64,000 nt of DNA from Gemmatimonadota bacterium (GTDB lineage Bacteria > Latescibacterota > UBA2968 > UBA8231), in contig JABJJN010000014.1 in the NCBI GenBank assembly GCA_018660835.1, forward strand, positions 246,852 through 310,851. The letters run 5' to 3'. Position numbers and translations under genes: made by a program. This document shows, one piece after another, positions 42,523 to 60,402 of this stretch (position 1 is the first letter of the stretch; the number at the start of each line of letters is the position of its first letter). The notes below the pieces were generated by a model. It did no database searches, was not told the origin of the DNA, and saw only the letters and a program-made list of their open reading frames with translations.

Positions 42523-44706
42523 ATGACAGTTCACAAGACGCGCTCCCCGTGGCCATGCTGTCTCTGCGTGTGGCTGAACCTTCTGTTGGCCGGTGCAGTA
42601 GGGGCGCAGCCAATGTTCCAGGAGACTTTGGACGTGGCATTTCCGCGTCTGCCGTTCCCTGCGGAAGGCATCTCCTTCGGCGACTACGACAACGACGGCT
42701 GGGTCGACATGTTTCTCACTCCTGATTGGGTCTCCACACTTCGGGACACAGCCGAGATCGCCCTCTACCACAACGAGGGCCACGGAGTCTTCGTAGACCG
42801 TACCGCAATCATTTCCGCAGATCGCCCATCTGTCCCTACTGGTTTCTGCGCACCCTTTGGGGACTTCGACAACGACGGTGATCTCGATCTCTTCGTGCCT
42901 GTTGGCTATCACACTGTCTCCGCCTGGAAAGGCCCAGATCTACTTCTACTCAACAATCGAGGGCGGTTCGAGAATGTCGCCTCCCAGGCCGTGTTCACCG
43001 ACTCGCTGAACTCCGGATCTGCTCTGTGGGCAGACTTCGACAGAGACGGCTACCTGGATCTTTTCGTTGGGCGATCGACCTTCGACCGGGATTCGGCGCA
43101 GACGAGCTTCTTTCACAACAGCTTCTTTCACAACAATGGCGGCGGAGAGTTTACGGATATTGCAGACCGCATCGGCCTTTCTGGTCAGCTCTCTGCGCTG
43201 GGTGGGACTGGAGGTCGATTTGTGGACTTGGATGGAGACGGTCATCTCGATTTCTATGCTACAGCCTGGGAATGGCCGAACCGAGTTCTGCTCAATAACG
43301 GCGCAGACAGCCTTGTTCACTATGTGTCCAGTGGCGCCAGCATCGAGGGGCAAGAGTTTGGTGCAGCCATTGGCGATATCGATAAGGATGGCGACATGGA
43401 CATAATCGCCCTTGCCGGTGTCCTTGGGGCAGAGGAAAGGTCCGCGTTGTTGCTGAATCTGGGTGAGGGAGAATTTGTCGACATCACCAATTCTGCCGGT
43501 ATTTCGGACACACTTCTTGCTGCGAATACTCTCGGTGCCGTCTTCGCTGATGTCGACAACGACGGAAATCTTGACCTCATCACGGCGACACCATTTACAC
43601 TGCAGCTCGGTACGGGTGACGGGAGTTTTACCGACGCCACGCCCTCTGCGGGTATCGCAGACGTAGGAAACAGTGTTGCCGTCGCAGATTGGAACCGAGA
43701 CGGGCACCTGGACGTTGTCTTCGGGTTCAACACGTTATTGGAGGACGAGCCTGGGCAGCCAGGGCGTCTGTTCCTGAACCAAGGCAACACCAACCACTGG
43801 CTGAGTGTCGAAGTTGTGGGGACTCAGTCGAACCGAAATGGTGTGGGTGCCCGAGTCGCGGTGCGTGCCGGAGACCGCCAGGTACGCGAGATCTATGGTG
43901 GAACGGGGCATTCACAGCATGAGATTTATGCCCACTTCGGGCTGGGAGCGAGAGCCACCGTAGACACACTGGAGATTCGCTGGCCCTCTGGGCAAGTGGA
44001 CGTGCTGACCGGCATTCCCGTCGATCAGAGGATTCGAGTCATCGAGGGCCAGGGTCGCTGGGCGGCCGCATTGCCGTCAGCGTGGGAGACCCCACCGCCA
44101 GCTACCGTTGAGTTCGGCGCGGAAACTCTGCTCTCAGCCATCGTGCGTCCTGCACTGTTTGAACCCACCGCCGAGATCACTTCTGTCACCGCCGATCTCA
44201 GTAATCTGGGTGGCCCACAGGCCGTGCCACTGGAAGATCTGGGCGATGGCCGCTATCAGTTGGTGAGCCAGCTTGTCGTGGATGGCGAGAGCGACGTACG
44301 AAGTGTCGACATTGTTGTCCTGCAGGCGACCTCTTTGGGAGAACACTGGATCAACCTGAGTCGGAATGTGGAAGTCGTGGGTGCGCCGATCACTGCAGTG
44401 CTGGAGTCGATGGACGCTACAGTTCCAGAGTCCTTCACCCTCTCTCAGAACTACCCCAATCCCTTCAATCCTGAAACGACGATCCGCTTCGATCTGCCCC
44501 TGTCGGCGGATGTCGACCTCAGCCTCTACAACCTCGCAGGTCAGCGCGTGGCTACGCTTGCCAGTGGCCTGCGTGAGGCGGGCAGCTATGACTTGCGCTG
44601 GGATGGCAGGGATGACGCCGGGAGAGCGTTGGCGTCAGGGATGTATTTCTACCGGCTCATCGCTGGCGACCAGGTCGGGACACGGAAGCTGATGCTGTTG
44701 CGATAG
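42523..44706 (+). CDS. Secreted FG-GAP/VCBS repeat protein with UnbV domain and sorting-type C-terminus
   Basis: 727 residues; GGAGG 6 bases before ATG. A signal peptide (about 12-29, LNLLLAGAVGAQ) precedes a beta-propeller of FG-GAP/VCBS repeats with Ca-binding loops (DYDNDGWVDMF, DFDNDGDLDLF, DLDGDGHLDFY, DVDNDGNLDLI). An ASPIC/UnbV domain follows (about 415-500: HWLSVEVVGTQSNRNGVGARV, HFGLG, LEIRWPSG). The C-terminal 90 residues (QNYPNPFNPETTIRFDLP..., ending KLMLLR) form a FlgD-Ig/type IX-like sorting domain. A surface-displayed or released adhesion or binding protein. Confidence 0.9.
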   Translation: MTVHKTRSPWPCCLCVWLNLLLAGAVGAQPMFQETLDVAFPRLPFPAEGISFGDYDNDGWVDMFLTPDWVSTLRDTAEIALYHNEGHGVFVDRTAIISADRPSVPTGFCAPFGDFDNDGDLDLFVPVGYHTVSAWKGPDLLLLNNRGRFENVASQAVFTDSLNSGSALWADFDRDGYLDLFVGRSTFDRDSAQTSFFHNSFFHNNGGGEFTDIADRIGLSGQLSALGGTGGRFVDLDGDGHLDFYATAWEWPNRVLLNNGADSLVHYVSSGASIEGQEFGAAIGDIDKDGDMDIIALAGVLGAEERSALLLNLGEGEFVDITNSAGISDTLLAANTLGAVFADVDNDGNLDLITATPFTLQLGTGDGSFTDATPSAGIADVGNSVAVADWNRDGHLDVVFGFNTLLEDEPGQPGRLFLNQGNTNHWLSVEVVGTQSNRNGVGARVAVRAGDRQVREIYGGTGHSQHEIYAHFGLGARATVDTLEIRWPSGQVDVLTGIPVDQRIRVIEGQGRWAAALPSAWETPPPATVEFGAETLLSAIVRPALFEPTAEITSVTADLSNLGGPQAVPLEDLGDGRYQLVSQLVVDGESDVRSVDIVVLQATSLGEHWINLSRNVEVVGAPITAVLESMDATVPESFTLSQNYPNPFNPETTIRFDLPLSADVDLSLYNLAGQRVATLASGLREAGSYDLRWDGRDDAGRALASGMYFYRLIAGDQVGTRKLMLLR

Positions 44707-45367: not shown

Positions 45368-47425
45368 TCAAAATGCCTGTCCAATGGACAGATACAGGCT
45401 TCGACCTGAGAATCCCCTGCTCCAGCCGGAATCGAGGCGCAGAGGGAGTCCCATATCCCACCGCAACCCAAGCCCATAGCCATCTGTCATCCCGTCCCAG
45501 GATGCATCCTTCGCTTTGCGCCACACCCCGGCTCGATCCCAGAAGCCTACCACGCCGACGGGGCCGATATCCACACGTAGTTCATTGCGAACATTGATGC
45601 CTGCCCGTCCGCCACCAACGGCCTGGATCGCATCACGGTCGACGCCACGAACCGAGCCGTCACCACCAAAGCTCTTCCAATAAGCCTGCGGCAATTGACG
45701 ATCACGCCGAATCGCCCCTGTCATCACCCAAGTCACAGCTTGTGCCCAGACGAAATGCGACCCGAGGGGCTGGTAGTGACGCGCCTCGACCAAACCATCA
45801 AGGACACGTGTCGTGGCGCCGCCGAATTCGACGGCAAAGAGTGCCTCTGCCCGCACGAAGGCACCACTCCTGGCCATGATCGGGTGATCACGCGTGTCTC
45901 GCTGCATGTCGAGACGAAAGTTGAGGGCCCGCGCCTCATTGGTGAGAATATCCGCCCACTGACGGTCGACTTCGAAGTCCTGTTTCAGATGGGGCCAGGT
46001 GACGACACTGTCATAGGCGGCACTATCCAAAAAAGCCAACGCGGAATCCTGCCTGCCGGAGAATTTGATTGTCTGCTCGACAACCGGGCGCTGGCGCGAC
46101 TGGGTCCAATCCATGGAGAGCTGCGTCAGATAACGGACCGCGCCTGAGCGTGATTGCCAGTTGCGTCCCAGGGTAGCATCGAGCTTCCACAGGCGCTCCA
46201 CAGAGGGATAGTCGTAGCTGCCACGAGCAACATAGGCCGCCGCCGTCGAGTCACCGAGAAAGGCCTGTCGCACAAGTGCTGGCGCGTGTTGTGATGTCAG
46301 CAGATCAAACTGACGCGGGTCATCCGGATCTGCAAAGACCTTGATCCGCCCAAACTCGTCCGTGACGCCTGCTGACAAGGTCAGGTCGGCAGGACTGTCG
46401 AAGAGATTTCGCTCTGTGAGATAGAGCGTGATCCCTTGCAGAGGCCGACCGAAACTTGCATCAGCACCGATGCGATTGCCACGTCCAAGGAAGTTTCGGT
46501 GCTCGACATTTCCAGTGAGACCCAGATCTTCTGTACTTGCATACGCGCGCGACTCCACGTGTAAATAGGGCCGTTCCTGCAGACGCAGGATGACGCGCTG
46601 CACACTGTCCGTCTCGGACTCGACAGGTGTAGCGACGATGACCGATCGAAACAATCCGGTCCGCGCCAGATTGCTGCGTGAACGACGCAGGTGCTCTGGG
46701 TCGTAGAGATCACCCTCGGAGAAAGTGAGCTGTCTGGAAATGAGCGAACGGCTTGTTTGCAAGGAGTCGGGCTCGACCTCTACAGCGCCGAAAACCATGC
46801 GACGGCCAGCGGTGATCTCGAATATCACATTCGCCTCGCGCCGCGAACGATCAAAATCGATTCGATTCTGTACGATTGCATGAGGGTGGCCCGTTGTGTT
46901 GAGCATCGTCAGCAGGCGGCGCTCGTCTTCCAACACGCGACCATAGCGAAAGACCTTCCCCCTCTCGACTCTGATTCGCTCTTGCAGGGCGGCTTCGTCG
47001 ATCGTAGCGATGTCGGCCAACTCCATCAGCACAGCCCCCACACGCCACTGCTCCCCGGAAGCGATCCGTAAGTAGATATGCAGTCGGTCATCCGGGTCCA
47101 GTGTGAAACGGCGTTCGACAATCTGTACATCCATGTAACCCGCCGCCCGATACAGATTCGTCACCGTCGTCATATCGGAGCGAAAATGTCGACGCTGGAA
47201 GCGCTTACCGATCTGCGTCTGCAGACCGGCGCGGACCTGAGGATTGCCAAAGGGCTTTTCCTGCTGGTGTTCAAAATGAATGCCTGCAATTCGTGGTTCT
47301 GCCAGTTCGCGATAGGTGATGGAGCGCTGCGGCCTCTCCACATCACCCCACGCGTCTGAGATCAGCAGCAGCACACCGAGCAGCACGCCCCACCCGCCCG
47401 TGACGACGAATGTCTTCGACATCAA
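45368..47425 (-). CDS. tamA: Omp85-family outer membrane protein, TamA-like
   Basis: 685 residues. Signal peptide (about 10-27). Three POTRA-like modules (about 45-290: for example RFQRRHFRSDMTTVTNLYRAAGYMDVQIV and SEGDLYDPEHLRRSRSNLARTGLFRSV), then a beta-barrel (about 300-685) with GGDGSVRGVDRD, the VRGF-type barrel motif, and a terminal Phe. The ATG overlaps the stop of the TamB-like gene (ATGA). By family, TamA/TamB assist assembly of certain outer-membrane proteins or phospholipid transport. BamA is an alternative, but the TamB neighbour argues for TamA. Confidence 0.87.
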   Translation of the reverse strand: MMSKTFVVTGGWGVLLGVLLLISDAWGDVERPQRSITYRELAEPRIAGIHFEHQQEKPFGNPQVRAGLQTQIGKRFQRRHFRSDMTTVTNLYRAAGYMDVQIVERRFTLDPDDRLHIYLRIASGEQWRVGAVLMELADIATIDEAALQERIRVERGKVFRYGRVLEDERRLLTMLNTTGHPHAIVQNRIDFDRSRREANVIFEITAGRRMVFGAVEVEPDSLQTSRSLISRQLTFSEGDLYDPEHLRRSRSNLARTGLFRSVIVATPVESETDSVQRVILRLQERPYLHVESRAYASTEDLGLTGNVEHRNFLGRGNRIGADASFGRPLQGITLYLTERNLFDSPADLTLSAGVTDEFGRIKVFADPDDPRQFDLLTSQHAPALVRQAFLGDSTAAAYVARGSYDYPSVERLWKLDATLGRNWQSRSGAVRYLTQLSMDWTQSRQRPVVEQTIKFSGRQDSALAFLDSAAYDSVVTWPHLKQDFEVDRQWADILTNEARALNFRLDMQRDTRDHPIMARSGAFVRAEALFAVEFGGATTRVLDGLVEARHYQPLGSHFVWAQAVTWVMTGAIRRDRQLPQAYWKSFGGDGSVRGVDRDAIQAVGGGRAGINVRNELRVDIGPVGVVGFWDRAGVWRKAKDASWDGMTDGYGLGLRWDMGLPLRLDSGWSRGFSGRSLYLSIGQAF

Positions 47426-50400
47426 AAGTCCTTCTCCAACACGATGCCGATCCCATAGACACCCCGATCCGAATTCGTACGAGCATCGATTTTCAGCAAT
47501 TTCGTCACGCGATACTCGGCCTCGAGTTGCCCCGTCGCCATATGACTTGCCAGCCCTTCATAGCGCAGCCACACAGACAGGGGCCAGTCCAGGTACTTGC
47601 CGACACGGACCGATGATTTGCCTATGGTCGCGCCGAGCACACTGCCAGAGGAGAGCAACTGAAATTCATCGAGCCCTACGCGCCTTGCCTGACGACTCAG
47701 CAGCAGCTGACCGGCGGCGGCGTAGAGGACATTGCCCCCTCCCTGCTCGGCGATGGGATCACCAAAAGCGAGCAGATTCAGCACCTCATTGTCCCCCAAT
47801 CCGGGACTCGTCAGAATCGGTGCTGTCTCCTGGGCAGTGCCACGCAGTTCGAGGCTCACCTCACGTTCTGTGTCTGAGGACAGATCGTATACAAGGGCCG
47901 TCGCCTGCAGATCGAGCTCAGGATCGAGCAGCAGTGGATCGTAGGCGATATCGAGCACTGAATAGGTCGGCAGCAGCCGATCGGTGATGATTCTTCCTCG
48001 ATCGAATTCAAAGCGCCGACTCAACAGCAGCAGATGCCCCTCCTGGATATCGAGCTCTCCCTGGAATCTTGGTTTTGACAATGTCCCGTAAATCCGAATG
48101 CCGCCATCAAGCACGACGTCTGAGATTTCACTGAGCGTCTGCAGCTCGTCGATATCGATGAACAGATCCAGTTGCGTCTGCTCCATCAGCTCACTTTGCA
48201 CCGATGGGGGCGGCGCGACGGCAGCCGTTAGATCGACCAGTTGCACTTGTGCCGTCGGTTGGTTCAGGCGCAGGAATCCTGAGAGTCGTCCCCCATCACC
48301 ACGCTGTTCCCATGTCAGGTCAGCATCAACATCATCCACATCAAAAATGTCCGCATAGCGATAGGGCACATCATCAAGCAGTAGATGCAGATCAAGCTCG
48401 GGCGTCAGGAACGTTGGCAAGCGCAGGGTCCCACTCAGTTCCAGACGCCCACTGCCCTCCGTCGACGTGCCGGCGAACCCCACGAGCCGCCCATGGGAGG
48501 CGTCATCGAAATAGATCTGTCCTGCCGCGAAGCGATAACCTGGCGTCATGTCCAGCAACGCCAACTGCAAGGCGACCACGTCGATTTCTCCGCGCAATCG
48601 CGGTTGCAGGAGATTGGATACGGCCAGATCGACCTCCACCCGCCCCGCCAGGTCATCGAGTTCTCCCCACTGGTCCAGCAAGGCCGTCAGCTCGATACCG
48701 GAAGATCTCAGACGCATCGTCCCATCGCGCCAGTCCGGCCACCCCAGTGAATCAGGTGGGATGCCGATGGAAGCAGTCAACTCATCTTGTGCTGGGGTCT
48801 GCCACTTTGCCAGCACATTCCACCCGAGGGGACGACCCTTGGCTCTCACTGTCAGCAGCCCGAGTTCATCGAGCTGAGCTGACCCTTCCACATCGAGGGC
48901 AGGTCGTGCAGGGGTCCCGGTGAAGACCGCCTCGGCGCTGATCAGACCTGAGAGATCTGTTGCACTGCCAAGAAGGGTGGCCGCTGATTGCAGATCGACA
49001 TCACGCAGACGCAATCGCAGATTGCTGACCATTGTATCAAGACGCCCCGACAACTCCACGGAGCCTACCGTGGGAACAACAGCCGTGTCGAGGCGATCGA
49101 CTTCCATCTCCAGGGACAAGGCATCAACAACGAGCGCCCCAGAATCGAGCCGCACTGAGGCGCGATCTCGCAATCGCAGCCCCCCTGTAGGTCGCTGGAT
49201 CCAGAATTGATCGATCGCAGCTTGTCCCTGCCAGTGCGACCAGTCCGGGTCCTTGGCGATCTGAGACAGGGGTAGAGCGACATCCAGCTGCCCTGTCAGT
49301 CGTACAGACGTTGAGTCATTTCTCTGGCCCGGCGTCGCCGCGTGGGCGACATAGTCTTCTGCCGTGACCTGCAATCGGGCGACCTGTTGCGCTCGAGTCG
49401 CTGCATCGAGCAGATGCCCAGGCGCCGACAGTCGTGCGTGCAGTGCCGACGAACTGTCCGCCCCCATCTGCAAGCTGACGCGAGTCCCTGGCTCGTCGAT
49501 ATCAACTTGCACACTCAAAGGCCCCAGGTCGTGCCCCTGCAATAACAAAGCATCGGCGTCGACAGAGGCCGTAATGGTCGGATAGGGCAAGGCGCCTGCG
49601 ATATCGACTCGCGCCCGCCCTTGGGTCGCCTCCCACGCTTTCCACGGAGCCAACTGCAGAGAGTCAACCCAACTCGAGATGGACCACTGGCGGCCCCGAC
49701 GAAGTGCCTTGAGTGTCGCCTCACCGATCGTTGTCGACAGATGAGCGTCCGTCATGTCGAAAGATTCAGGCCGGGTTTCAACCTGGATCGACTCCAAGGT
49801 GTAGGCGAACAGATCAGCGCGATGAATGCTCATACTATCGATGGACAGGGACAGCGTCGGTCGCAGTAGATCCTTCCAGGGAGTGGATCCTCGGACCCTC
49901 CCGCGCACGAAAACCGAATCAGCCTGACGCTGCAATCTCAACCCAGGGAATCGCCCTTCGACATTCACACAATCCACTGCCGCTGACAGGGACAGATCCA
50001 GGCCGTCTCCCCGAGCGCCCAGGTGCAGACGTCCCTGCGAGCTATGGGCCGACACCTCGACGGGGCCCGCAACCTGCCAGTCGGCGAGCTGCAGCGAGTC
50101 GATTCTGATGCCTCCTTGTGTCTCCGCGCCGAACCCGAGGACTCCGCGTCCACCCAGTTCTCCATCGAGCATCCCCTGCAACGTAGGATCCCAACGCCGC
50201 AGATCGAACTGCCGCGCCGCTACGTGCAAGGTATCGAAGCGTGAGGTGTTGAGATCGAGAACGGCCATTGCCATAAGACGACCCGACCCGGCCTGCGCCT
50301 TGATCTCCAGCTGTCGGTTTGCACCGAGATGGAGTTGCGCCAATACGGTCCCAGGATCGGCGCCGAATGGAAATGACCCAGACTCGAGCGCGACGTCCAG

Positions 50401-51744
50401 TTCGGGCCAGGCCGCGTGTCCGGTCAGCGCGAAAGGCGTCGGTCGTCCCAGCCAGGCCTCGCCCTGCAGATCGCCCGCCAGATCGAGTCGACCTGTGTCT
50501 CCAAGGGTCCCCTGGGCAGCCAACTGGCCGAGGACATCGCTACTTGCAGTTGCTCGCAGGTCACCATTTACCATCTGAGCACTCACCTGCAGATCGACTG
50601 CGTCCCTTGCCAGGCCACCGACGGCGGGTGCGGCTACGTCTATGTCGATGCGTTGCCCCTGTAAGGATGACGCAAGCGTCACGCGCGCGTCGGCACGCCC
50701 GGAGAGAGGTGCCAGCAGAGTGCCGATGTCGAAACCGGTAAGCGACGCGGTGCCGGTGAACCCCTCGTCCAGCTGCAGCACACCCGAGGCGGCCAGTTGT
50801 CCCTCGGCGACGACACCAGCCAACGAATCAAGCCAGAGGGAACTTCTGTCTGCACGGATTCGACCATCCCCGGCGATGGAGCTGATCCAGGGTGTTTCAC
50901 CTTCGTAGGAGAAGATCCCCGCGAGCGACACCGGCCACAGGGTGCCAGTCAACTGAACCTGTTCATTGACCTGCCAGATATCTGGGATGGAGAGATCCTG
51001 ATCACCTCTGCCCTCGAGTTCGCCGAAGGTGAGGGTTGCGCCCAAATCCGTTTCCATCGGCATCGCCCCCATCAGGCCGATGACAAGAGATCCGCGCACC
51101 ATGGCCTGAAAATCCTCACCTCCAACGCTCATCTCGCGAAAACTGATTTCCTGCATATGAATTCGAACTACCTGATCCCGTGGGACGGCGAAGAGATCGG
51201 CCGCCACTCTGACTGGCCCCTCAGGCGTACTCAACCAACCTGACGTCGTCAGATCCAGACGCCCTGGTACGCGCCCCGGCGGCTGCCATTCAACCTGCAA
51301 TCCATGGCCCCGCCACAGCAGTGAATCACCCTCGACAATATCGATCGCTACCGCGCCAATACTTAAGGCGGGCAGATCGTCAAGAATCGACAGATCCGGA
51401 AGCGATGGGCGAAGGTCCTCAGCCGCTGGACTCCGGGTGTCAGCCTGGGAGGCCAGTTGCCAACGTGCTCGCACCCCCTTCATCTGTGACCGCCACTGCC
51501 ACAACGAGATCTGCACTGTGTCGATCGTCACCCACGAGTGCTCGTCCTCTATCCTCACCTGCTCCAGGCCTACGCCTTGCAACAGGCTCCCCGAGGCATC
51601 GGCAACGGTGAGTTCGAAGCCAGCGTCCGCTACCTGCCCACGAACCAGGGAAAGCATGAGATGGATTCCGAGAGGCGACAGCCCCACGGCGAGTGTGAAC
51701 ACCAACAGGCTAAGACTCAGAAGGCGCCAGAGCTTCAATCCCAT
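47422..51744 (-). CDS. tamB: TamB-like translocation/assembly module protein
   Basis: 1440 residues from ATG 51744, which overlaps the stop of the AMMECR1 gene (TGATG). One N-terminal membrane anchor (about 5-28, RLLSLSLLVFTLAVGL) is followed by a very long beta-strand region (AsmA/DUF490-like repeats, many xxGxLxLxG strands) and the conserved TamB C-terminal domain (about 1210-1440: LTSPGLGDNEVLNLLAFGDP, GLDEFQLLSSGSV, YRVTKLLKIDARTNSDRG). It is an elongated lipid-conduit-type protein of the VPS13/TamB/AsmA class spanning the periplasm, linked to TamA. Confidence 0.88.
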   Translation of the reverse strand: MGLKLWRLLSLSLLVFTLAVGLSPLGIHLMLSLVRGQVADAGFELTVADASGSLLQGVGLEQVRIEDEHSWVTIDTVQISLWQWRSQMKGVRARWQLASQADTRSPAAEDLRPSLPDLSILDDLPALSIGAVAIDIVEGDSLLWRGHGLQVEWQPPGRVPGRLDLTTSGWLSTPEGPVRVAADLFAVPRDQVVRIHMQEISFREMSVGGEDFQAMVRGSLVIGLMGAMPMETDLGATLTFGELEGRGDQDLSIPDIWQVNEQVQLTGTLWPVSLAGIFSYEGETPWISSIAGDGRIRADRSSLWLDSLAGVVAEGQLAASGVLQLDEGFTGTASLTGFDIGTLLAPLSGRADARVTLASSLQGQRIDIDVAAPAVGGLARDAVDLQVSAQMVNGDLRATASSDVLGQLAAQGTLGDTGRLDLAGDLQGEAWLGRPTPFALTGHAAWPELDVALESGSFPFGADPGTVLAQLHLGANRQLEIKAQAGSGRLMAMAVLDLNTSRFDTLHVAARQFDLRRWDPTLQGMLDGELGGRGVLGFGAETQGGIRIDSLQLADWQVAGPVEVSAHSSQGRLHLGARGDGLDLSLSAAVDCVNVEGRFPGLRLQRQADSVFVRGRVRGSTPWKDLLRPTLSLSIDSMSIHRADLFAYTLESIQVETRPESFDMTDAHLSTTIGEATLKALRRGRQWSISSWVDSLQLAPWKAWEATQGRARVDIAGALPYPTITASVDADALLLQGHDLGPLSVQVDIDEPGTRVSLQMGADSSSALHARLSAPGHLLDAATRAQQVARLQVTAEDYVAHAATPGQRNDSTSVRLTGQLDVALPLSQIAKDPDWSHWQGQAAIDQFWIQRPTGGLRLRDRASVRLDSGALVVDALSLEMEVDRLDTAVVPTVGSVELSGRLDTMVSNLRLRLRDVDLQSAATLLGSATDLSGLISAEAVFTGTPARPALDVEGSAQLDELGLLTVRAKGRPLGWNVLAKWQTPAQDELTASIGIPPDSLGWPDWRDGTMRLRSSGIELTALLDQWGELDDLAGRVEVDLAVSNLLQPRLRGEIDVVALQLALLDMTPGYRFAAGQIYFDDASHGRLVGFAGTSTEGSGRLELSGTLRLPTFLTPELDLHLLLDDVPYRYADIFDVDDVDADLTWEQRGDGGRLSGFLRLNQPTAQVQLVDLTAAVAPPPSVQSELMEQTQLDLFIDIDELQTLSEISDVVLDGGIRIYGTLSKPRFQGELDIQEGHLLLLSRRFEFDRGRIITDRLLPTYSVLDIAYDPLLLDPELDLQATALVYDLSSDTEREVSLELRGTAQETAPILTSPGLGDNEVLNLLAFGDPIAEQGGGNVLYAAAGQLLLSRQARRVGLDEFQLLSSGSVLGATIGKSSVRVGKYLDWPLSVWLRYEGLASHMATGQLEAEYRVTKLLKIDARTNSDRGVYGIGIVLEKDF

Positions 51745-52313
51745 CAAGAAGGGCCGAAACTCTGCGCTGTGTAGCGGAAGGCGGCCAGCGTCGATGACCA
51801 ATAGTCGGGCGCCCATCCCGCTTTCGCTTTCACCTCGGTCACGAAACGCTCTGGTTCAGCGATCACGTCCCAGACGGCGGGCAGGAGTGTGCCGCGATGG
51901 CGACCATCGACAAGCAACAGTCCGTCGACACCGGGACGCAGTTGGCGCACCAGATCATCCGTGTCGGTCACATGTAGTGGCTCCAGGGCGGACAGTACGG
52001 AAACCGACGGCTCTAGTCCGGGGCGCTCAGCCAGCGTGAGGGGCGCAAAGCGGGGATCGCGAGAGGCTGCGGCGTGTGTATTGATGGCGACATCACAGAT
52101 CAGCGGTCGCGTAGCAGCCGAACTACCCATACAACCCCGCAACGACCCGTCTTCGCGACGAAGGGTGACAAAGCTCGCCGCTTCCTGCTGGACAGATGCG
52201 TCGAAGTCAGACGGATCCACCTGCAGCTGGGTGCCATCGGCGACACATTGGTCGAGGGCCCGTGCTACCACCTCTAGCAGTTGCGCACCATCTGTCTGTG
52301 TCAGTTCAGCCAT
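51744..52313 (-). CDS. AMMECR1-domain protein (AmmeMemoRadiSam system protein A)
   Basis: About 189 residues from ATG 52313; upstream in-frame ATGs at 52322 and 52331 are alternatives. The AMMECR1 signature LRGCMGS is present (about 57-63), with VDPSDFDASVQQEAASFVTL before it, then SVLSALEPL and FVTEVKAKAG. AMMECR1 proteins occur in a widespread but mechanistically unsettled trio with Memo and a radical SAM enzyme. It overlaps the Memo gene (8 bases) and the TamB gene (1 base). Confidence 0.93.
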   Translation of the reverse strand: MAELTQTDGAQLLEVVARALDQCVADGTQLQVDPSDFDASVQQEAASFVTLRREDGSLRGCMGSSAATRPLICDVAINTHAAASRDPRFAPLTLAERPGLEPSVSVLSALEPLHVTDTDDLVRQLRPGVDGLLLVDGRHRGTLLPAVWDVIAEPERFVTEVKAKAGWAPDYWSSTLAAFRYTAQSFGPS

Positions 52314-53121
52314 GAAAGACATAGGCGCCATAACCAACGACTCGTTCAGGACTCCCTGCTGTGTCGGCGGATGTCCGCACATCTACGGCGGCTGCGGTGA
52401 GATGATATCTCTGCGCCAAACGCAGGAGGGACTGGATCGCAGGTAGACCACAGGCGCCGCCTGCATCGATATCATCGGGTTTGAGAGATTCGATCGCGAT
52501 GGACGTTTCGGCATCCAGCGCCCTTGCCACATCGTGATTGTGGAAGTGACTCAGATCCGAGCTGATGATGAAGACGGTCTCCGGCCCACCCCACAAGCGA
52601 TCCAGCATTCGATCAAATTGAGCCGGATCACACTGCCCAAACAACAAGGGCACGACCGTGAAGGGACCCTCCAGTGTCTGTAGCAGGAATGGCAGGTGGA
52701 CTTCGATTGCGTGTTCATCCTCGTGCGCCTCGTCCACGATCTGCACAGCCCCTTGATCGACTAACTGTTGCACGATGGGGTCAACCGTGATGGGACCCAG
52801 AGGCGTGTCGAGCAGATCTGCCACTGGAGCCACCAGACCACTTACGGCGACGCGGTGAGACGGACCGATGAGCACGACGCGGCGGATCGATTGACGCTGC
52901 GATTCGAGCCAGGCATAGGCGGTGCCGGCAACAGAGCCTGAGAAGACATATCCTGCATGTGGACAGATGAGTGCCTTCGCTGGTCGAATTGGATCAGGCA
53001 CGCGCCCCGTCGCAGCCAGTCTCTTCGCTCCCTCAGTGAGATACGCATCCACCGTCGCCGCCAGGCGGTGGCGATCATCACTGTAGAAGCGGCCGGCTAC
53101 TGCGGCAGGACGTACCAGCAC
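52306..53121 (-). CDS. Memo-family protein (AmmeMemoRadiSam system protein B)
   Basis: 271 residues from GTG 53121. Memo fold related to class III extradiol dioxygenases: PHAGYVFSGSVAGTAY (His of the metal site), LIGPSHRV, EHAIEVHLPFL, and SSDLSHFH near 185-192. A metal-binding active site of the dioxygenase type is conserved, but the physiological substrate is unknown. It is the first gene of a minus-strand operon Memo-AMMECR1-tamB-tamA and diverges from the radical SAM partner at 53207. Confidence 0.93.
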   Translation of the reverse strand: MLVRPAAVAGRFYSDDRHRLAATVDAYLTEGAKRLAATGRVPDPIRPAKALICPHAGYVFSGSVAGTAYAWLESQRQSIRRVVLIGPSHRVAVSGLVAPVADLLDTPLGPITVDPIVQQLVDQGAVQIVDEAHEDEHAIEVHLPFLLQTLEGPFTVVPLLFGQCDPAQFDRMLDRLWGGPETVFIISSDLSHFHNHDVARALDAETSIAIESLKPDDIDAGGACGLPAIQSLLRLAQRYHLTAAAVDVRTSADTAGSPERVVGYGAYVFHG

Positions 53122-53206
53122 GGTATCAGCGGTCGGAAGGAGGCACGGTATATATTCGGGACGTCTATTCTAGATTACCCCTGTGTGCCGGAGGGAGCAA
53201 GACGTT

Positions 53207-54292
53207 TTGCCAGACGATGCAATCCACCCTGCCCGCTACTGGCACACCATAGAAGACGGGCGCCTTCAATGCGATCTATGTCCGCGCTTCTGTCGGTTGC
53301 GCGATGGTCAGCGTGGCTTGTGTTTTGTTCGCGCCCGCGCCGGGGAGCAGGTGGTGCTCACCACTTACGGTCGTTCGAGTGGTTTCTGCGTCGACCCGAT
53401 CGAGAAAAAACCCCTGAACCACTTCCTCCCTGGCACACCCGTGCTCTCCTTTGGCACGGCTGGTTGTAATCTGACCTGCCAATTCTGTCAGAATTGGGAC
53501 ATCAGTAAGTCGCGGCAAGTCGATACGCTCGCCGCGGCGGCATCTCCTGAAACCATCGCCCGCGCGGCACAGGATCTGGGCTGTGCGAGTGTCGCTTTCA
53601 CCTACAATGACCCCGTCATCTTCCTGGAGTATGCTGTCGACGTCGCTGCCGCCTGCCATGAAGCGGGAATCGGCACCGTCGCCGTCACGGCCGGAGAAAT
53701 CTGCGAGGCACCACGCCGTGAGTTCTTTGCTTCAATGGATGCGACGAATATCGATTTGAAGGCCTTCACCCAGACCTTCTACCACGAGTTGTGCAGTGGC
53801 GATCTGGCGACCGTTCTTGAGACGCTGAACTATGTGGCCCATGAGACCGACACGTGGCTGGAGATCACAACGCTGCTGATCCCCGACGCCAACGATTCCA
53901 ACGTCGAGATTCAGGCTCAGACCCGGTGGATCTACGAACACCTCGGTCCACAGGTGCCGCTCCACTTCACCGCATTTCACCCGGATTTCCGCATGCTTGA
54001 TAGAGAGCGAACACCGGCAACCACCCTGGCACGGGCGCGCCAGATCGCCCTCGATCAGGGCCTCAAACATGTTTACACGGGGAATGTCCACGATGAGGAA
54101 GGTGGCAGCACAACCTGCCCACACTGTGGGACACGTGTCATCGGGCGTGACTGGTACACACTGACATCCTGGTCGCTGAGTGAAACGGGTGAGTGCAGCC
54201 AATGCGGAACCCCATTGGCCGGCGTGTTCCGCGGTGCACCCGGCACGTGGGGTGCCCGACGACAGCCCGTGAGCCTGGAAGACTACAAGTGA
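53207..54292 (+). CDS. AmmeMemoRadiSam radical SAM enzyme
   Basis: About 361 residues from TTG 53207, with GGAGG/GGAG at 53190-53196 upstream; GTG 53183 is an alternative. Radical SAM CxxxCxxC in CNLTCQFCQNW, similar to pyruvate-formate-lyase activase. Extra Cys motifs: N-terminal LCPRFCRLRDGQRGLC and C-terminal CPHCGTR and CSQCGTP, the latter like a zinc ribbon. By family it works with AMMECR1 and Memo; the reaction is unsettled. Divergent from the Memo operon, leaving about 85 bases for both promoters. Confidence 0.93.
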   Translation: MPDDAIHPARYWHTIEDGRLQCDLCPRFCRLRDGQRGLCFVRARAGEQVVLTTYGRSSGFCVDPIEKKPLNHFLPGTPVLSFGTAGCNLTCQFCQNWDISKSRQVDTLAAAASPETIARAAQDLGCASVAFTYNDPVIFLEYAVDVAAACHEAGIGTVAVTAGEICEAPRREFFASMDATNIDLKAFTQTFYHELCSGDLATVLETLNYVAHETDTWLEITTLLIPDANDSNVEIQAQTRWIYEHLGPQVPLHFTAFHPDFRMLDRERTPATTLARARQIALDQGLKHVYTGNVHDEEGGSTTCPHCGTRVIGRDWYTLTSWSLSETGECSQCGTPLAGVFRGAPGTWGARRQPVSLEDYK

Positions 54293-54304: not shown

Positions 54305-54994
54305 TCAGTCTCTCATGCCCTGTCGCAGGATGACCAATCTCAACAGGTGCATGAGGGCCGTCGCTGTTGCTGCTACGTAGGTAAGGGCTGCTGCATTGAG
54401 GACCTTCTTGGCCAACACGCCTTCCTGTGGCGCCAGATATCTACCATCCACCAGTTGCCTCATGGCGCGCGAACTCGCATCGAATTCCACGGGCAATGTG
54501 ATCACCTGGAAGAGGACGACGCCCGCATACAGGGCGATCCCTATGTCGACAAGCAACGTGCTACCCGTGAAGAAAAAGCCGATGAAGAACAGTGGGAATG
54601 CCGCCATGGAGCCAAGATTGGCGACGGGCAGAAAAGCTTGCCGCATGTGCAATGGGAAGTATCCATTTGCATGCTGTGTTGCATGGCCTACCTCATGGGC
54701 GGCAACAGCGAGGCCAGCCAGATGATGACCATGGTAGATATCGGCAGAGAGTCGTACGACCTTCGAACCTGGATCATAGTGATCGGAGAGCACTCCTGGC
54801 GTCTCTTCCACAGCCACATCGTCGATCCGGTTCTGCCGCAGCAATCGGCGGGCGACCTCTGCGCCGGTGATTCTCGCTGCCGAACCAACCTGGCTGTACG
54901 TGCCGTACGTACTCTTGACCCGGTGCTGAGCCCAAAGGGCAAGAATCACACAAGGGATCAGAAGCAGAATGGTGGAATCCAGCGAGTACAACAC
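54305..54994 (-). CDS. Membrane zinc metallopeptidase, YugP type
   Basis: About 229 residues from GTG 54994, which has GGGGAGG 6 bases upstream; TTG 55000 abuts that motif and is unlikely. Zn_peptidase_2 family: HEVGHATQH (HExxH) at about 100-108, membrane segments at the N-terminus (TILLLIPCVILALW) and after the motif (MAAFPLFFIGFFF, LVDIGIALYAGVVLFQVI), and the EFDASSRA motif. Function is not known in detail; cytoplasmic-membrane protease is likely. Convergent with the radical SAM gene. Confidence 0.88.
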   Translation of the reverse strand: MLYSLDSTILLLIPCVILALWAQHRVKSTYGTYSQVGSAARITGAEVARRLLRQNRIDDVAVEETPGVLSDHYDPGSKVVRLSADIYHGHHLAGLAVAAHEVGHATQHANGYFPLHMRQAFLPVANLGSMAAFPLFFIGFFFTGSTLLVDIGIALYAGVVLFQVITLPVEFDASSRAMRQLVDGRYLAPQEGVLAKKVLNAAALTYVAATATALMHLLRLVILRQGMRD

Positions 54995-55207
54995 AAGCAA
55001 CCTCCCCGATTGGTTCTATGGTTGGATGTCAGGCTTCACCGCACGGACATCCGCTTGTTACGACGATACTTCCTGTCGCTATTTTGACGTTTCGATGACC
55101 CTTCAGGTTCCTGATCTACTCCCCTGCCAAGACATATTGCATCTGGCAAGGCATGGTCCATCTGGACGGAAGGTGTCTGGCTCACCAGCTTTGCCGCAGG
55201 ACACAAA

Positions 55208-56032
55208 ATGAAACTGGGAATCTTCAACAGAGTCTTCGAGCGATCATCGATCGAAGCGAATCTCGATGCCGTCGCCAGGAGCGGTTTGGAGGCGATTCAA
55301 CTCGACCTGGTGACACTGGGCCTCGAATCGATGCCCGACGTCATCGACGCTGAGTTGTGCAGGCGGGTTCGCGCCCTGCTGCAGACGCGCCACATCGAAT
55401 TGGCTGCTATGTCGGGGACGTGGAATGTCATCCACCCGACACAGGGCCCTGAAGGACTGCAGCGATTGCGGACCCTCGCCGCGGCCTGCCCAGACTTAGG
55501 GACCCGTCTCATCACGATGTGCACGGGAACACGCGATAAGGATTACCTGTGGGCGGCCCACCCGGAGAACGACAGCGATGATGCCTGGCGCGACACGGTT
55601 CGAGCGATGGCTGCAGCAACTCAGATCGCTGAGGAAACGGATGTGACCCTTGTATTTGAGCCAGAAGTCAACAATGTCGTGAACACGGCGGCGAAGGCGC
55701 GGCGTCTTCTCGACGAGATCGCCAGCGACCATCTGCGCGTCGTCATCGACGGCGCCAATCTGTTCCAGACGGGTCAGCTGTCGCGGATGCACGACGTGCT
55801 GGATGAGGCATTCCAACTGTTGGGTGACGACATCTGCCTGGCGCATGCAAAAGATCTGGAGACCGATGGCGACGCAGGTCACCAGGCAGCGGGTACTGGC
55901 GTGCTGGACTACGACCACTATCTGGCATGTTTGCAGCGCAGTGGATTCGACGGCAACCTGATTCTACACAGCCTCGAAGAGGCCCAGATACCTTTCTCAA
56001 GAGCTTTTGTCACGAACATCATGGAGAGATAG
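55208..56032 (+). CDS. Sugar phosphate isomerase/epimerase-like protein
   Basis: 274 residues; AGGA 7 bases before the ATG. A TIM-barrel AP endonuclease-2-like (xylose isomerase-like) protein: GLEAIQLDL, TLVFEPEVNN, VVIDGANLF and LAHAKDLE provide the metal-binding Glu, Asp and His residues. Such enzymes isomerise or epimerise sugars, inosose or hydroxypyruvate. It is 1 base from the following SDR gene, so the two likely act in one sugar or polyol pathway. Confidence 0.84.
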   Translation: MKLGIFNRVFERSSIEANLDAVARSGLEAIQLDLVTLGLESMPDVIDAELCRRVRALLQTRHIELAAMSGTWNVIHPTQGPEGLQRLRTLAAACPDLGTRLITMCTGTRDKDYLWAAHPENDSDDAWRDTVRAMAAATQIAEETDVTLVFEPEVNNVVNTAAKARRLLDEIASDHLRVVIDGANLFQTGQLSRMHDVLDEAFQLLGDDICLAHAKDLETDGDAGHQAAGTGVLDYDHYLACLQRSGFDGNLILHSLEEAQIPFSRAFVTNIMER

Positions 56033-56033
56033 A

Positions 56034-56750
56034 ATGTCGGACTTACAAGATCAGGTCGCAGTCGTCGTCGGCAGCAGTTCGGGAATGGGGCGCGCCACGG
56101 CGATTGGTTTGGCCGACAGGGGGGCCAAGGTGGTTCTCGCTGCCCGGCGTCGCGACAAACTTGAGGAACTCGCCAGCGAGATTGGCACCAATACATTGGT
56201 CTGCGTCGTCGATGTGGAGGATACGGAGCAGGTTGAAGCACTCATCCGAAGCACGTTGGATGCCTTCGGCCGCATCGACATCCTCGTCTATGCGACAGGC
56301 ACGAATATCCCCGAACGCAGCCTCCAGGACCTCTCCTACGAGACCTGGAATATGATGATCAACACGAATCTGACTGGTGCCTTCTACTGCACGAAGGCCG
56401 TCCTGCCCGTGATGCGACAACAGCAAGCGGGGCTCATCATCTATCTGTCATCAGGTTGTGTGCAATCGCCGGACATGTCAGGTGTGTCCTACCAGGCAAC
56501 CAAGTGCGGTATGTCGGGGCTGGCTCACGGGACATTCAAGGAAGAGCAGGAGAATGGCGTACGGACAACGGTGATTTTCCCAGGACTTTGCGACACGCCA
56601 CTGGTGTTCAAACGGCCCACGCCGACGCCACCAGAGGTGATGGCGAAAGCATTACAGCCACAAGATGTGGCAGATGCATGTCTCTTCGTGGCGACGCTAC
56701 CCGAACGGGCACGCGTACCCGAACTGGTCTTGTTGCCCGCTGGTCTATAA
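56034..56750 (+). CDS. Short-chain dehydrogenase/reductase
   Basis: 238 residues from ATG 56034. NAD(P)-binding GSSSGMG (12-18), Arg after AARRR suggesting NADP preference, VYATGTN in place of NNAG, and catalytic Ser (LSSGC), Tyr and Lys in YQATK. The substrate is unknown. Coupled to the sugar isomerase gene; convergent with the FKBP gene. Confidence 0.88.
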   Translation: MSDLQDQVAVVVGSSSGMGRATAIGLADRGAKVVLAARRRDKLEELASEIGTNTLVCVVDVEDTEQVEALIRSTLDAFGRIDILVYATGTNIPERSLQDLSYETWNMMINTNLTGAFYCTKAVLPVMRQQQAGLIIYLSSGCVQSPDMSGVSYQATKCGMSGLAHGTFKEEQENGVRTTVIFPGLCDTPLVFKRPTPTPPEVMAKALQPQDVADACLFVATLPERARVPELVLLPAGL

Positions 56751-56790
56751 TGCGAGCCCGAAGGTCCCCGGCGAGAAGGACGGCCGTAGA

Positions 56791-57246
56791 TCAGTCGTAG
56801 ATCCCCAACAACTCGATGTCGAAAATCAACGGTGTGCAGGGCGGAATCTTAGATTTTTTGCCCTTCTTTCCATACGCCAATCGTGCCGGGATCGTCAGCC
56901 TCGCCTTGCCGCCACCGGCAAGAAGCTGCAGGCCTTCCGTCCATCCAGGGATAACGTCGGTGAGTTCGAAAGCTGACGGACTCCCCCGTTTGTAGGAACT
57001 GTCGAAGACGGTGCCATCCGCAAGACGTCCCTCGTAGTGCACTTGCACGCGGTTGTCAGCCGTTGGTTTTGGCCCCGTACCTTGTTTCAACAGCAGGAAC
57101 ACAAGGCCAGACTCGGTCTGCATCGCCCCCTCTTCGGCGGCTGCCTGCGCGATCACTGCATCGTGTTTTGGCGATGCACAGGGATCCGCGCAGCCCACAA
57201 GACAGACACCGAGTGCCAATAGCAGAGCAGGAATCCTCCTACACAT
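56791..57246 (-). CDS. FKBP-type peptidyl-prolyl isomerase lipoprotein
   Basis: 151 residues from ATG 57246. Lipoprotein signal ending LVGC (Cys about 18). FKBP domain (about 40-150): VQVHYEGRLADGTVFDSSYKRGSPSAF, VIPGWTEGLQLL, ARLTIPARLAYG, and PLIFDIELL. It catalyses cis-trans proline isomerisation in envelope proteins. It starts 8 bases inside the end of the solute-binding gene. Longer frames upstream lack any signal. Confidence 0.93.
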   Translation of the reverse strand: MCRRIPALLLALGVCLVGCADPCASPKHDAVIAQAAAEEGAMQTESGLVFLLLKQGTGPKPTADNRVQVHYEGRLADGTVFDSSYKRGSPSAFELTDVIPGWTEGLQLLAGGGKARLTIPARLAYGKKGKKSKIPPCTPLIFDIELLGIYD

Positions 57247-57994
57247 TCTGACCCACGTCCTGATCTGCGGCAGCGACGGTGAGTTGCCCTTGTACCCCAT
57301 GCCGATCGATGAGTTGTTGAACCAGACCATTGCTCTTCGCCTCTTCGACAAAGTCCCTGAGAAAAGCCGCAGCGAGCGGTCGATCTCGTTTGGTGCCAAT
57401 CGCTTGTTGCACCGCCGTAAACTGGCCATTGAGAATCCTGGCACCCTCTAATCGTTCCACGTCCTTGAGCAATCGCGGGCGCAAGCCCGCCAGTGCCTCC
57501 AACTCGTGATTCACAAACAGGTCGAAAGAGGCATCGACGCCATCGGATTTCTCCAGATGTGCATGTTCAATATGGTCGGCCAGCCAGAGTCCATACGCAC
57601 TGCGGCCATACACTGAAATCCGCACACTCTCTCGATCTACGTCATCAACTGATTGGATTTTCGACCCTGCTGGTACGAGATAGGTCGCCTCGATCTCGGC
57701 ATAAGCCGGACTGAAGTCGATCGTCTTTGCACGCTCTGGCTCTGCCCCAAGATTGCCGATGTCCCACAAATCTTCGACAGCCGTATCCGCAAGATCTCCT
57801 GGTGTGTCATAGAGGACCCAGGATACGGATACGCCCAGTCGCTGCGCTACGGCGAGAGCCATATCTGGGGAAACGCCGACGGGCACACGGGACGAATGGT
57901 CGGAAACGAGAAGAAAATTCGACAGATTGATCGCCACTCGCAGTGTCCCGGTCGGTGCAAGTTCCGCGCGTAGTTGCTCGCTCACCTGACTCAT
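57239..57994 (-). CDS. Family-3 solute-binding-like protein without signal peptide
   Basis: 251 residues. The fold is that of periplasmic amino-acid-binding proteins: TLRVAINLSNF, GVSPDMALAVAQRLG, FSPAYAEIEATYLVPAGS, VYGRSAYGLWL. No signal peptide or lipobox is present, and the start is 6 bases after the previous stop, so none can be missing upstream. It may be cytoplasmic or a degenerate sensor domain. No ABC permease or ATPase lies nearby. Overlaps the FKBP gene by 8 bases. Confidence 0.82.
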   Translation of the reverse strand: MSQVSEQLRAELAPTGTLRVAINLSNFLLVSDHSSRVPVGVSPDMALAVAQRLGVSVSWVLYDTPGDLADTAVEDLWDIGNLGAEPERAKTIDFSPAYAEIEATYLVPAGSKIQSVDDVDRESVRISVYGRSAYGLWLADHIEHAHLEKSDGVDASFDLFVNHELEALAGLRPRLLKDVERLEGARILNGQFTAVQQAIGTKRDRPLAAAFLRDFVEEAKSNGLVQQLIDRHGVQGQLTVAAADQDVGQNV

Positions 57995-58000
57995 ACGGGC

Positions 58001-58708
58001 CTACAACACATATCCGGGTAAAGGCACCGTCGCGGATTCACCACTGTGCTGCGCGTCTAGTCCAAGGATATAGGGTCCGGCAATGGCGACCCACTCTTCC
58101 GGGGACGGTTTGCTGGGTGCATTGGCAGGCCAGTTCGATCGATACATCTCGGTGTTAATGTCGCACGGATTCATCGGGATGGATGCCATTCCATCGGGCA
58201 ATTCGCGTGCAATGGCTCGCATCAACCCTTCGATCGCCCATTTGCCAGCGCAATAGGGTGCCAGATTGGCCAACCCCTTGCGCCCCGCTCGTGAACTGAG
58301 ACCAATGAGTGTCCCGGATCCACGCTCAACCATAGAGGGCAGGAAGGCGCGGCATACATTCGCGGTGCCATTGATGTTGACAGACAAGACCTGATCGAAT
58401 TCTTCGTCACTCAGTTCCCAGGTTCGCTTTGATGCGTCGTTGCAGATCGACGCATTGCAGATGACCAGATCAGGCGTGCCCTGCTGGGCGACGACCGAAT
58501 CTGCCCAGTCTCTGACATCATCAGCCGACGTGACATCCACGGCGCGAAAACTGTGCGGCGCAGGAAAACGTGCGGACAGCTCGTCGATGCCTTGCTGTGA
58601 TCGGGCGCAACCCGCAATCGTCTTCCCCTGGTCGATGAACCACTGCGCCAGCACCGAGCCAAGTCCTCGCGAGACACCGGTGATGGCGATCAGATCATAG
58701 GAACTCAT
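58001..58708 (-). CDS. Short-chain dehydrogenase/reductase
   Basis: 235 residues. TGVSRGLG (10-17), VICNASIC in place of NNAG, LSSRAG with Ser, and YCAGK with Tyr/Lys. The C-terminus is short for family use. It lies 6 bases after the CBM9-like gene and 6 bases before the solute-binding-like gene, in a five-gene minus-strand unit. Confidence 0.87.
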   Translation of the reverse strand: MSSYDLIAITGVSRGLGSVLAQWFIDQGKTIAGCARSQQGIDELSARFPAPHSFRAVDVTSADDVRDWADSVVAQQGTPDLVICNASICNDASKRTWELSDEEFDQVLSVNINGTANVCRAFLPSMVERGSGTLIGLSSRAGRKGLANLAPYCAGKWAIEGLMRAIARELPDGMASIPMNPCDINTEMYRSNWPANAPSKPSPEEWVAIAGPYILGLDAQHSGESATVPLPGYVL

Positions 58709-58714
58709 CTGCCG

Positions 58715-59521
58715 TTACTCCACGAAGCGGACATAGCCGAGGCGCTCCGGCACGTGGTAAGACTGCAGATTCAGCGGCGCCCAACCAGACAGCTCCTTGG
58801 GCAGATCTGCTCCACGCGGACGCTCATAGCGATTGACATTGATGCGCCAGACATCACCGGCAGCGGGCGGCAAGGCGGCTGTTCCGGCGATCTTGCCGAA
58901 TCCAGACCAGGGCAGGGCGAATTCGAAGACGGAGCCGTCGTCGACATCGGTGCTGTCATTCACCGTGCCGTGATTCATGACGGCATGGCGCATGCCCTGC
59001 TGCGTCCAGGTGTACAGATCCGGCCATTCAACAGGATCGCCGTTGGAGTACTTGAATTCGTTATTGGGGATCCAGATGTCGTTGATCGTATCGAGACAAT
59101 TGATGTGAATCTCAGCATAGTCCTTGCCATCGCCATCGGGATCGATAAAAAGTTCGATCGTCTCCTCTCGACACAGACAGTCCGTGTCTCTTTCGACCAT
59201 TGAGCTCCAGATGTCCGGGTCTTCGACTGCGATCAGGAGATACAGATACTCCTCGTCCCAGAGCATCTTTGCCATCGTCTGAAACTCAGGGACCAGATCG
59301 TCGTCCTGGAAGCGCGTGAAGGATCCTACCTCGGGTGCCAGTTGCCAGGCCAGTTCGGTTGCCAGACCGTCGATGGTGATCGGACCGTCAACAAACCTGC
59401 TGTCGTAGTGGCGTTCCCAGTCCGGCGTGTCTTGAGCCTGCGCGACGGTGGCAAGGAAACCTGCCACGCACAGACTCAGGACCAGGTGAATGGCAAGATT
59501 CCGCGCGAAGGTCGTCTGCAT
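58715..59521 (-). CDS. Exported CBM9-like domain protein
   Basis: 268 residues from ATG 59521; signal peptide LVLSLCVAGFLATVAQA. One CBM9-like domain (about 30-265): ITIDGLATELAWQLAPEVGSF, a DxDGDGKDYAEI-type strand, VFEFALPWSGFG and WRINVNRYER. The motif pattern matches carbohydrate-binding family 9-like domains of unknown ligand. A weaker copy is the N-terminal domain of the sensor kinase at 527-4822. Confidence 0.86.
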   Translation of the reverse strand: MQTTFARNLAIHLVLSLCVAGFLATVAQAQDTPDWERHYDSRFVDGPITIDGLATELAWQLAPEVGSFTRFQDDDLVPEFQTMAKMLWDEEYLYLLIAVEDPDIWSSMVERDTDCLCREETIELFIDPDGDGKDYAEIHINCLDTINDIWIPNNEFKYSNGDPVEWPDLYTWTQQGMRHAVMNHGTVNDSTDVDDGSVFEFALPWSGFGKIAGTAALPPAAGDVWRINVNRYERPRGADLPKELSGWAPLNLQSYHVPERLGYVRFVE

Positions 59522-59631
59522 TGGCGATCCGTCCTTTGAGTTGATACGGATGAAGCCCACTGCCGCTGAGCAAGCGAATCGAGGGTACGCCCACAGCGAA
59601 GTGAGGATGTGGCAGGTAGCCGATGGGCCGC

Positions 59632-60402
59632 TCAGGATGCGGCTGATGCATCTCCCGACATAGGCGCGTCATGGTCTTGCGAAAGGTGAATTGAGTCGGC
59701 ACTCACCACCTGCTCTGAAAGACTGACACTTGCGGGCAAGCGTAGGGCCAAGGGCACGGCGACTCCGGCGGACACGATCATCTGGAAAGCGGCCTCCACC
59801 GTCAGATCCGTGTGCCTGATATCCTCAGGCTGCACGAGCAGCATGAACCCCGTCGTTGGATTTGGTGCTGTGGGGATAAAAATGCTGTGCGCTGGTGGCC
59901 GATCATCGGTAAAAGGCACGTCGCCGGCGAGAAAACCCAGGGTCCACGTGCCTCGACGCGGGTATTCGAAGAGAACGACCTTCTTGAAGCCAGCCCCCGT
60001 GGGCGATGTCATGGTCTCCATCAACTGCCGAACGGGGCTATAGATGGTGCGCACCAATGGCAGTCGCTCGATCGCCTCGCGCGCCTCCGCCCAGAGTCGT
60101 CGTCCGAGGACATTGGTTACAACTGTGCCGACCCCATAGAGAATGACGATCGTGATGGCAAAGCCGATGCCACTGTAATACCAGTCTGGATTACCAAAAA
60201 AGGCGGCGAAGGGTTTGACCAGAGGACGCGAAAAACCGTCTGCCCAATCGAACAATTTCCATAGGACAAAACCGGTGATCCAAAGAGGCGCAATGATCGA
60301 TACGCCCGCCATAAGGCGTGTACGGACCCTGAACACACTAGGAGGCGGTTCGGCCTGGGCCTCATTAGGCGTTTTGTCGGTAGCGTTTGGATCAGAATTC
60401 AT
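59632..60402 (-). CDS. DUF502 membrane protein
   Basis: 256 residues. Two membrane segments (about 30-52, ITGFVLWKLF; 78-100, GFAITIVILYGVGTVVTN), then a conserved cytoplasmic-type domain with LPLVRTIYSPVRQLMETM, FKKVVLFEYPRRGTWTLGF and IPTAPNPTTGFMLLV. Function unknown. First of the unit leading to the CBM9-like gene (110-base gap). Confidence 0.9.
   Translation of the reverse strand: MNSDPNATDKTPNEAQAEPPPSVFRVRTRLMAGVSIIAPLWITGFVLWKLFDWADGFSRPLVKPFAAFFGNPDWYYSGIGFAITIVILYGVGTVVTNVLGRRLWAEAREAIERLPLVRTIYSPVRQLMETMTSPTGAGFKKVVLFEYPRRGTWTLGFLAGDVPFTDDRPPAHSIFIPTAPNPTTGFMLLVQPEDIRHTDLTVEAAFQMIVSAGVAVPLALRLPASVSLSEQVVSADSIHLSQDHDAPMSGDASAAS

Follow-up and report, generated by a model that had tools for sequence, protein, structure and literature searches.

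An AmmeMemoRadiSam cassette beside tamB in a family of Latescibacterota, probably placed in an older gene block

The AmmeMemoRadiSam trio, which comprises a Memo protein, an AMMECR1 protein and a radical SAM enzyme, is to our knowledge widespread and without a settled function. In a 64,000-nucleotide stretch of a Gemmatimonadota bacterium genome (GTDB phylum Latescibacterota; GCA_018660835.1, contig JABJJN010000014.1, positions 246,852 to 310,851; hereafter the window), the genes of this trio lie directly beside tamB and a gene for an Omp85 outer-membrane barrel protein. The arrangement is a lineage-specific variant in which two known systems stand side by side, and the trio is probably an independent redox cassette that was placed in an older gene block and has no dedicated role at the outer membrane. 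The cassette would sit between a Zn-peptidase gene and the remaining genes of this block, which encode a protein of predicted LolA-like fold, TamB and the barrel protein, and it likely entered the family's ancestor a single time and was likely lost two or three times afterwards. Direct overlap of AMMECR1 with tamB is likely secondary and recent, a by-product of losing the LolA-fold gene in between, after which tamB likely came under the Memo–AMMECR1 transcript. In the window's genus, the two systems would be tied solely by a common transcript and by translational coupling. Nothing found in this analysis connects trio activity with TamBA activity.

All three trio proteins exceeded the NCBI cut-offs for the AmmeMemoRadiSam system, with AMMECR1 scoring 167.6 bits against TIGR04335 (cut-off 99), Memo 220.1 bits against TIGR04336 (cut-off 26) and the radical SAM enzyme 633.1 bits against TIGR04337 (cut-off 220), the last with its CxxxCxxC motif present as CNLTCQFC. 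The window differs from that system as known elsewhere in that its trio is placed within another gene block, one containing tamB. The two neighbouring genes resemble the TamAB module in encoding a TamB C-terminal domain (72 bits against Pfam PF04357, cut-off 22.4) and a POTRA-bearing Omp85 protein (75 bits against Pfam Omp85, cut-off 24; Pfam POTRA was also passed). However, both proteins fell under the NCBI equivalog cut-offs, with 37.9 bits for TamB against NF047952 (cut-off 825) and 48.5 bits for the barrel protein against the TamA model NF047950 (cut-off 625). The barrel protein was also below the NCBI TamL and BamA cut-offs, the BamA model being the nearest. On its domain matches it is assigned to the Omp85 proteins of the BamA/TamA superfamily, and it is likely the partner of TamB; 'tamA' is used here as a positional name only, because the protein is far under the TamA equivalog cut-off.

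An earlier note on this DNA had described overlaps of 8, 1 and 4 bases along one strand, and these were recovered in the window: 8 bases between Memo and AMMECR1 (ATG at 52313), 1 base between AMMECR1 and TamB (ATG at 51744), and 4 bases between TamB and the tamA-like gene with a TTG start or 1 base with an ATG start. Further in-frame starts are possible at every one of these joints. The divergent orientation of the radical SAM gene was also borne out, with a start at 53183 in the gene call; the previously given 53207 is a TTG alternative. From the gene overlaps, Memo and AMMECR1 are likely co-transcribed with tamBA in the window's genus. A consensus scan of the AMMECR1–tamB junction gave no terminator-like or promoter-like site, although such scans find no more sites than in shuffled sequence. 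The promoters of Memo and of the radical SAM gene likely lie in the 61 bases that separate the two genes, a stretch in which a sigma-70 consensus scan gave no match.

The phylum was sampled with 64 genomes, 25 of them from the window's family; AMMECR1 was found in 23 of the 64 and TamB in 53. Within the family, tamB was present in every genome (25/25) and AMMECR1 in seven, namely the window genome (G000), G059 of the same genus (g1), G052, G058, G060, G062 and G063. These carriers span four genera, and the locus is the same in all seven over the stretch that their contigs cover, so the possibility raised earlier, that the neighbourhood is found in this one genome only, did not hold. In G000, G052, G058 and G060, a single contig carries the genes for Memo, AMMECR1, TamB and the barrel protein in identical order; the contig ends inside TamB in G059 and G063 and just past AMMECR1 in G062 (contig comparisons between the AMMECR1 and TamB tables were made by eye). 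Since further genera of the family have this gene order too, the arrangement is more than chance. No AMMECR1 match was obtained in g2, g3, g5 or G061, including the single-contig genomes G050 and G051. An AMMECR1 start codon lies inside Memo in all seven carriers (shortest overlap 8–20 bases), and several of them also have alternative AMMECR1 starts past the Memo stop. Overlap between AMMECR1 and TamB was seen solely in the window's genus, with 1 base in G000 and 4 bases (TTG start) in G059, and a gap of 39 bases separates the two genes in G060. The trio radical SAM gene of G059 (L030:7575-8845) is split over two frames of 442 and 158 bits, through a frameshift that belongs either to the gene or to the draft assembly.

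Relatives without the trio have the gene order Zn peptidase – predicted LolA-fold protein – tamB – tamA. The LolA-fold gene was found in 21 of the 25 family genomes, directly ahead of tamB on one contig in 18, and was present in 17 of the genomes without the trio (18 in all), the exception being the fragmented G044. It follows AMMECR1 in four of the seven carriers, with candidate ATG starts 53 to 300 bases on, but gave no match anywhere in the window genome and was not found in its genus. The AMMECR1–tamB overlap is therefore likely secondary. All seven carriers have the Zn-peptidase gene next to the trio, and 15 of the 18 trio-less genomes have it next to the LolA-fold gene. The protein encoded ahead of tamB in 18 of the 25 family genomes (for example L127:10979-11806; homologues are encoded directly 5' of tamB in most family members) has a predicted fold resembling a LolA-type half barrel (LolA/RseB/EPDR1-like). 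It differs from the LolA family proper in that no Pfam family exceeded its cut-off in any of the four members scanned, and a shared fold shows no function. A role as a periplasmic partner of TamB is possible.

Outside the family, no such neighbourhood was detected in the loci and genomes examined. Sixteen genomes from other families of the phylum carry AMMECR1; TamB was matched in ten of these, always on a contig other than that of AMMECR1. A search of genome contigs with the window AMMECR1 alone found no relative; a profile built from a seven-sequence alignment gave 71 loci, six from the window's family and 65 from elsewhere. No TamB was detected in the flanks (up to 10 kb) of these 65 loci by a TamB profile that was built from the window's phylum and not tested on the TamB proteins of other groups. 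With the Pfam TamB model, applied to the genomes of 50 of the 65 loci (all except L065, L066, L079, L091, L098, L104, L111, L112, L117 and L119 to L124), TamB was found in 32 and never on the AMMECR1 contig (0/32). The AMMECR1/Memo–tamB neighbourhood proposed earlier is supported within the family and was not seen in these genomes from beyond it. Among 140 genomes of Myxococcota, AMMECR1 was found in 64 and TamB in 117; among the matches listed, the two share a contig only in G213 and G226, at distances of 2.27 Mb and 398 kb. Contigs of AMMECR1 and TamB were matched up by eye in these two samples as well. In 27 of the 65 non-family loci, the gene for the radical SAM enzyme is found upstream, encoded on the opposite strand; this is the commonest layout and the same head-to-head placement as in the window, and divergence was therefore rejected as a lineage-specific trait.

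Other trio layouts were observed in the same searches. AMMECR1 and Memo are fused in one frame at 13 loci from other families of the phylum (L033–L045), with a radical SAM gene adjacent and in the same orientation at five of them. At L097, L099, L110 and L118 (Geothrix, acidobacterial, Holophagaceae), AMMECR1 and the radical SAM enzyme occupy one reading frame, which hints that the two cooperate directly. G026:C302:2453-3457 is a radical SAM gene of the trio type (494 bits), and no AMMECR1 was found in that genome (89 % complete). The genome of L064, which gave no TamB match, has an Omp85 gene on the strand opposite to AMMECR1 and 4 kb away from it. Among the literature matches listed, the titles and abstract openings contained no report of this trio–tamBA arrangement.

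Trees were reconstructed for the block and for the trio. The tree of TamB, barrel and Zn peptidase gave the groups (G058,(G040,g3)) and (g5,(G052,(g1,g7))) with ultrafast bootstrap values of 96 to 100, and trio carriers fall on both sides of it. A FastTree phylogeny of Memo and AMMECR1 contained 80 tips, drawn from 81 Memo and 86 AMMECR1 sequences, for which both genes and 70 % of columns were required; L054–L057, L060 and L062 were omitted as copies of family loci already included. The family sequences group together in this tree with a support of 0.76 when G058 is included, and the family radical SAM sequences group together with a support of 0.97. Family trio sequences lie apart from the fused Memo–AMMECR1 form of the phylum, within a set of trios that come mostly from Planctomycetes, Proteobacteria and Myxococcota. 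On these sequence comparisons, the placement fits acquisition from outside. One gain followed by two or three losses is the simplest account, because the carriers share one position.

Several points limit or count against this account. The block tree was built from the block's own genes rather than from independent markers, and long branches lead to its outgroups; apart from G050 and G051, the genomes with absence calls are drafts; and the support of 0.76 is low. In G058 (L029/L148), the Memo–AMMECR1 pair is kept while the radical SAM gene is missing at the locus (the best TIGR04337 matches elsewhere in this genome score ~357 bits, against 632–642 in five other carriers), and the Zn-peptidase gene is inverted beside Memo. 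These features, together with the scatter of carriers over the block tree, would be expected if the trio had been inserted twice at the same place, in G058 and before G052/g1/g7, or if the whole locus had been moved by recombination. This is nevertheless considered unlikely, as G058 shares with the other carriers the position, the orientation to the LolA-fold gene and the Memo–AMMECR1 overlap, and repeated loss is more parsimonious than insertion twice at one site.

The earlier note had taken the tight coupling as a sign that the trio is linked to outer-membrane biogenesis. The trio and TamBA could form one functional unit in which the trio makes or modifies an envelope molecule carried by TamBA, or tunes TamBA. 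All seven carriers, across four genera, keep the Memo–AMMECR1 pair at this place although AMMECR1 is only ~50 % identical between genera, so that position is held despite deep divergence; this could be a result of selection for co-expression. Three genomes, from the two lineages g1 and G060, lack the LolA-fold gene; every one of them carries the trio, and confinement of this loss to carriers is what a functional link would also predict. Junction overlaps in the window's genus, with no terminator-like site, point the same way. These observations leave a little room, perhaps one chance among many, for a real trio–TamBA link. The suggested link is, however, opposed by the 18 of 25 family genomes that retain tamB without AMMECR1, by an AMMECR1–tamB overlap that is confined to one genus while four carriers have the LolA-fold gene after AMMECR1, by the absence of any shared contig in the 32 TamB-bearing genomes among the 50 examined outside the family, and by a Zn-peptidase synteny that is as firm as that of the trio. 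A single functional unit is accordingly regarded as improbable. Still more doubtful is a specific form of it, in which the trio would make or oxidatively edit an envelope lipid delivered by TamB and the barrel protein, the LolA-fold carrier thereby becoming unnecessary where the systems are coupled; this would account for loss of the LolA-fold gene only in trio carriers, in two separate lineages. An assembly artefact or contamination joining unrelated pieces was rejected as next to impossible, despite the 7.98 % contamination rating of the window genome (7.09 Mb, 105 contigs, 93 % complete) and a second TamB on contig C95 that groups with another family, since separately assembled genomes of four genera share the gene order, with overlapping genes at the joint. 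That second TamB (G000:C95:282136-283203, L144) groups with G008 and is either a paralogue or contamination.

The chemistry of an independent cassette can be considered from its protein families. In a 2019 survey of the dioxygenase–Memo superfamily in the Journal of Biological Chemistry (JBC), Memo was reportedly tied to nucleobase and isoprenoid modification. The window Memo would be a redox protein that binds iron and resembles extradiol dioxygenases; it may act jointly with AMMECR1 and the radical SAM enzyme on some small molecule, which on family knowledge would make the trio a redox system. Over 156 residues the window Memo aligned with human MEMO1 (5.7e-24). According to PMC11081632, residues H49, H81 and C244 serve MEMO1 as ligands for iron or copper; the protein is extradiol dioxygenase-like, yet dioxygenase activity was not detected. 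Residues H55 and H89 of the window Memo align with the first two of these ligands, and C224 matches the third by position, outside the local alignment; all three are invariant across seven family Memo sequences. Unlike human MEMO1, the window Memo is bacterial and coupled to AMMECR1 and a radical SAM gene. For the neighbouring module, PMC12800296 describes TamAB as involved in phospholipid movement and outer-membrane protein insertion. TamB and the Omp85 protein may likewise carry lipid or help to place outer-membrane proteins, independently of the trio.

Features of the locus are listed in Table 1. The genes between the Zn peptidase and DUF502 were matched at the same place solely in G059. 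DUF502 adjoins the Zn-peptidase gene both at trio loci (L026, L027 and L032) and at trio-less loci (L127, L128, L131 and L132). Past the barrel gene, positions 42523-44706 of the window encode an FG-GAP/UnbV_ASPIC protein with a FlgD-like C-terminal domain, which was unmatched in the fetched family loci L026–L032, whose flanks on that side are short.

Table 1. Genes and intergenic stretch of the trio–tamBA locus, in window coordinates
Feature	Position	Strand	Remarks
Radical SAM enzyme of the AmmeMemoRadiSam trio	53183..54292	+	TIGR04337 match; motif CxxxCxxC = CNLTCQFC
Divergent intergenic stretch, Memo/radical SAM	53122..53182	.	61 bases
Memo	52306..53121	-	TIGR04336 match
AMMECR1	51744..52313	-	TIGR04335 match; start 8 bases within Memo
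TamB-family AsmA-like protein	47422..51744	-	PF04357 match; ATG overlaps AMMECR1 stop by 1 base
Omp85 outer-membrane barrel with POTRA (tamA-like)	45368..47422 (ATG) or 47425 (TTG)	-	Pfam Omp85, POTRA
Zn_peptidase_2 gene	54305..55000	-	PF04298; ahead of LolA-fold gene and tamB in trio-less relatives
Sugar isomerase-like TIM barrel, SDR, FKBP, SBP3 and other genes	55115..59668	.	Between Zn peptidase and DUF502
DUF502 membrane protein	59632..60402	-	Neighbour of Zn peptidase in several relatives

For a trio whose function is unsettled, a firm partner in the genome would be of value, and the lipid-editing explanation, if true, would give the system its first physiological home. The locus instead provides a case in which a family-wide, overlapping arrangement can pass for a functional partner and yet likely arose from one placement and the loss of an intervening gene. 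The predicted LolA-fold protein encoded ahead of tamB in most members of the family is a lead for envelope biology.
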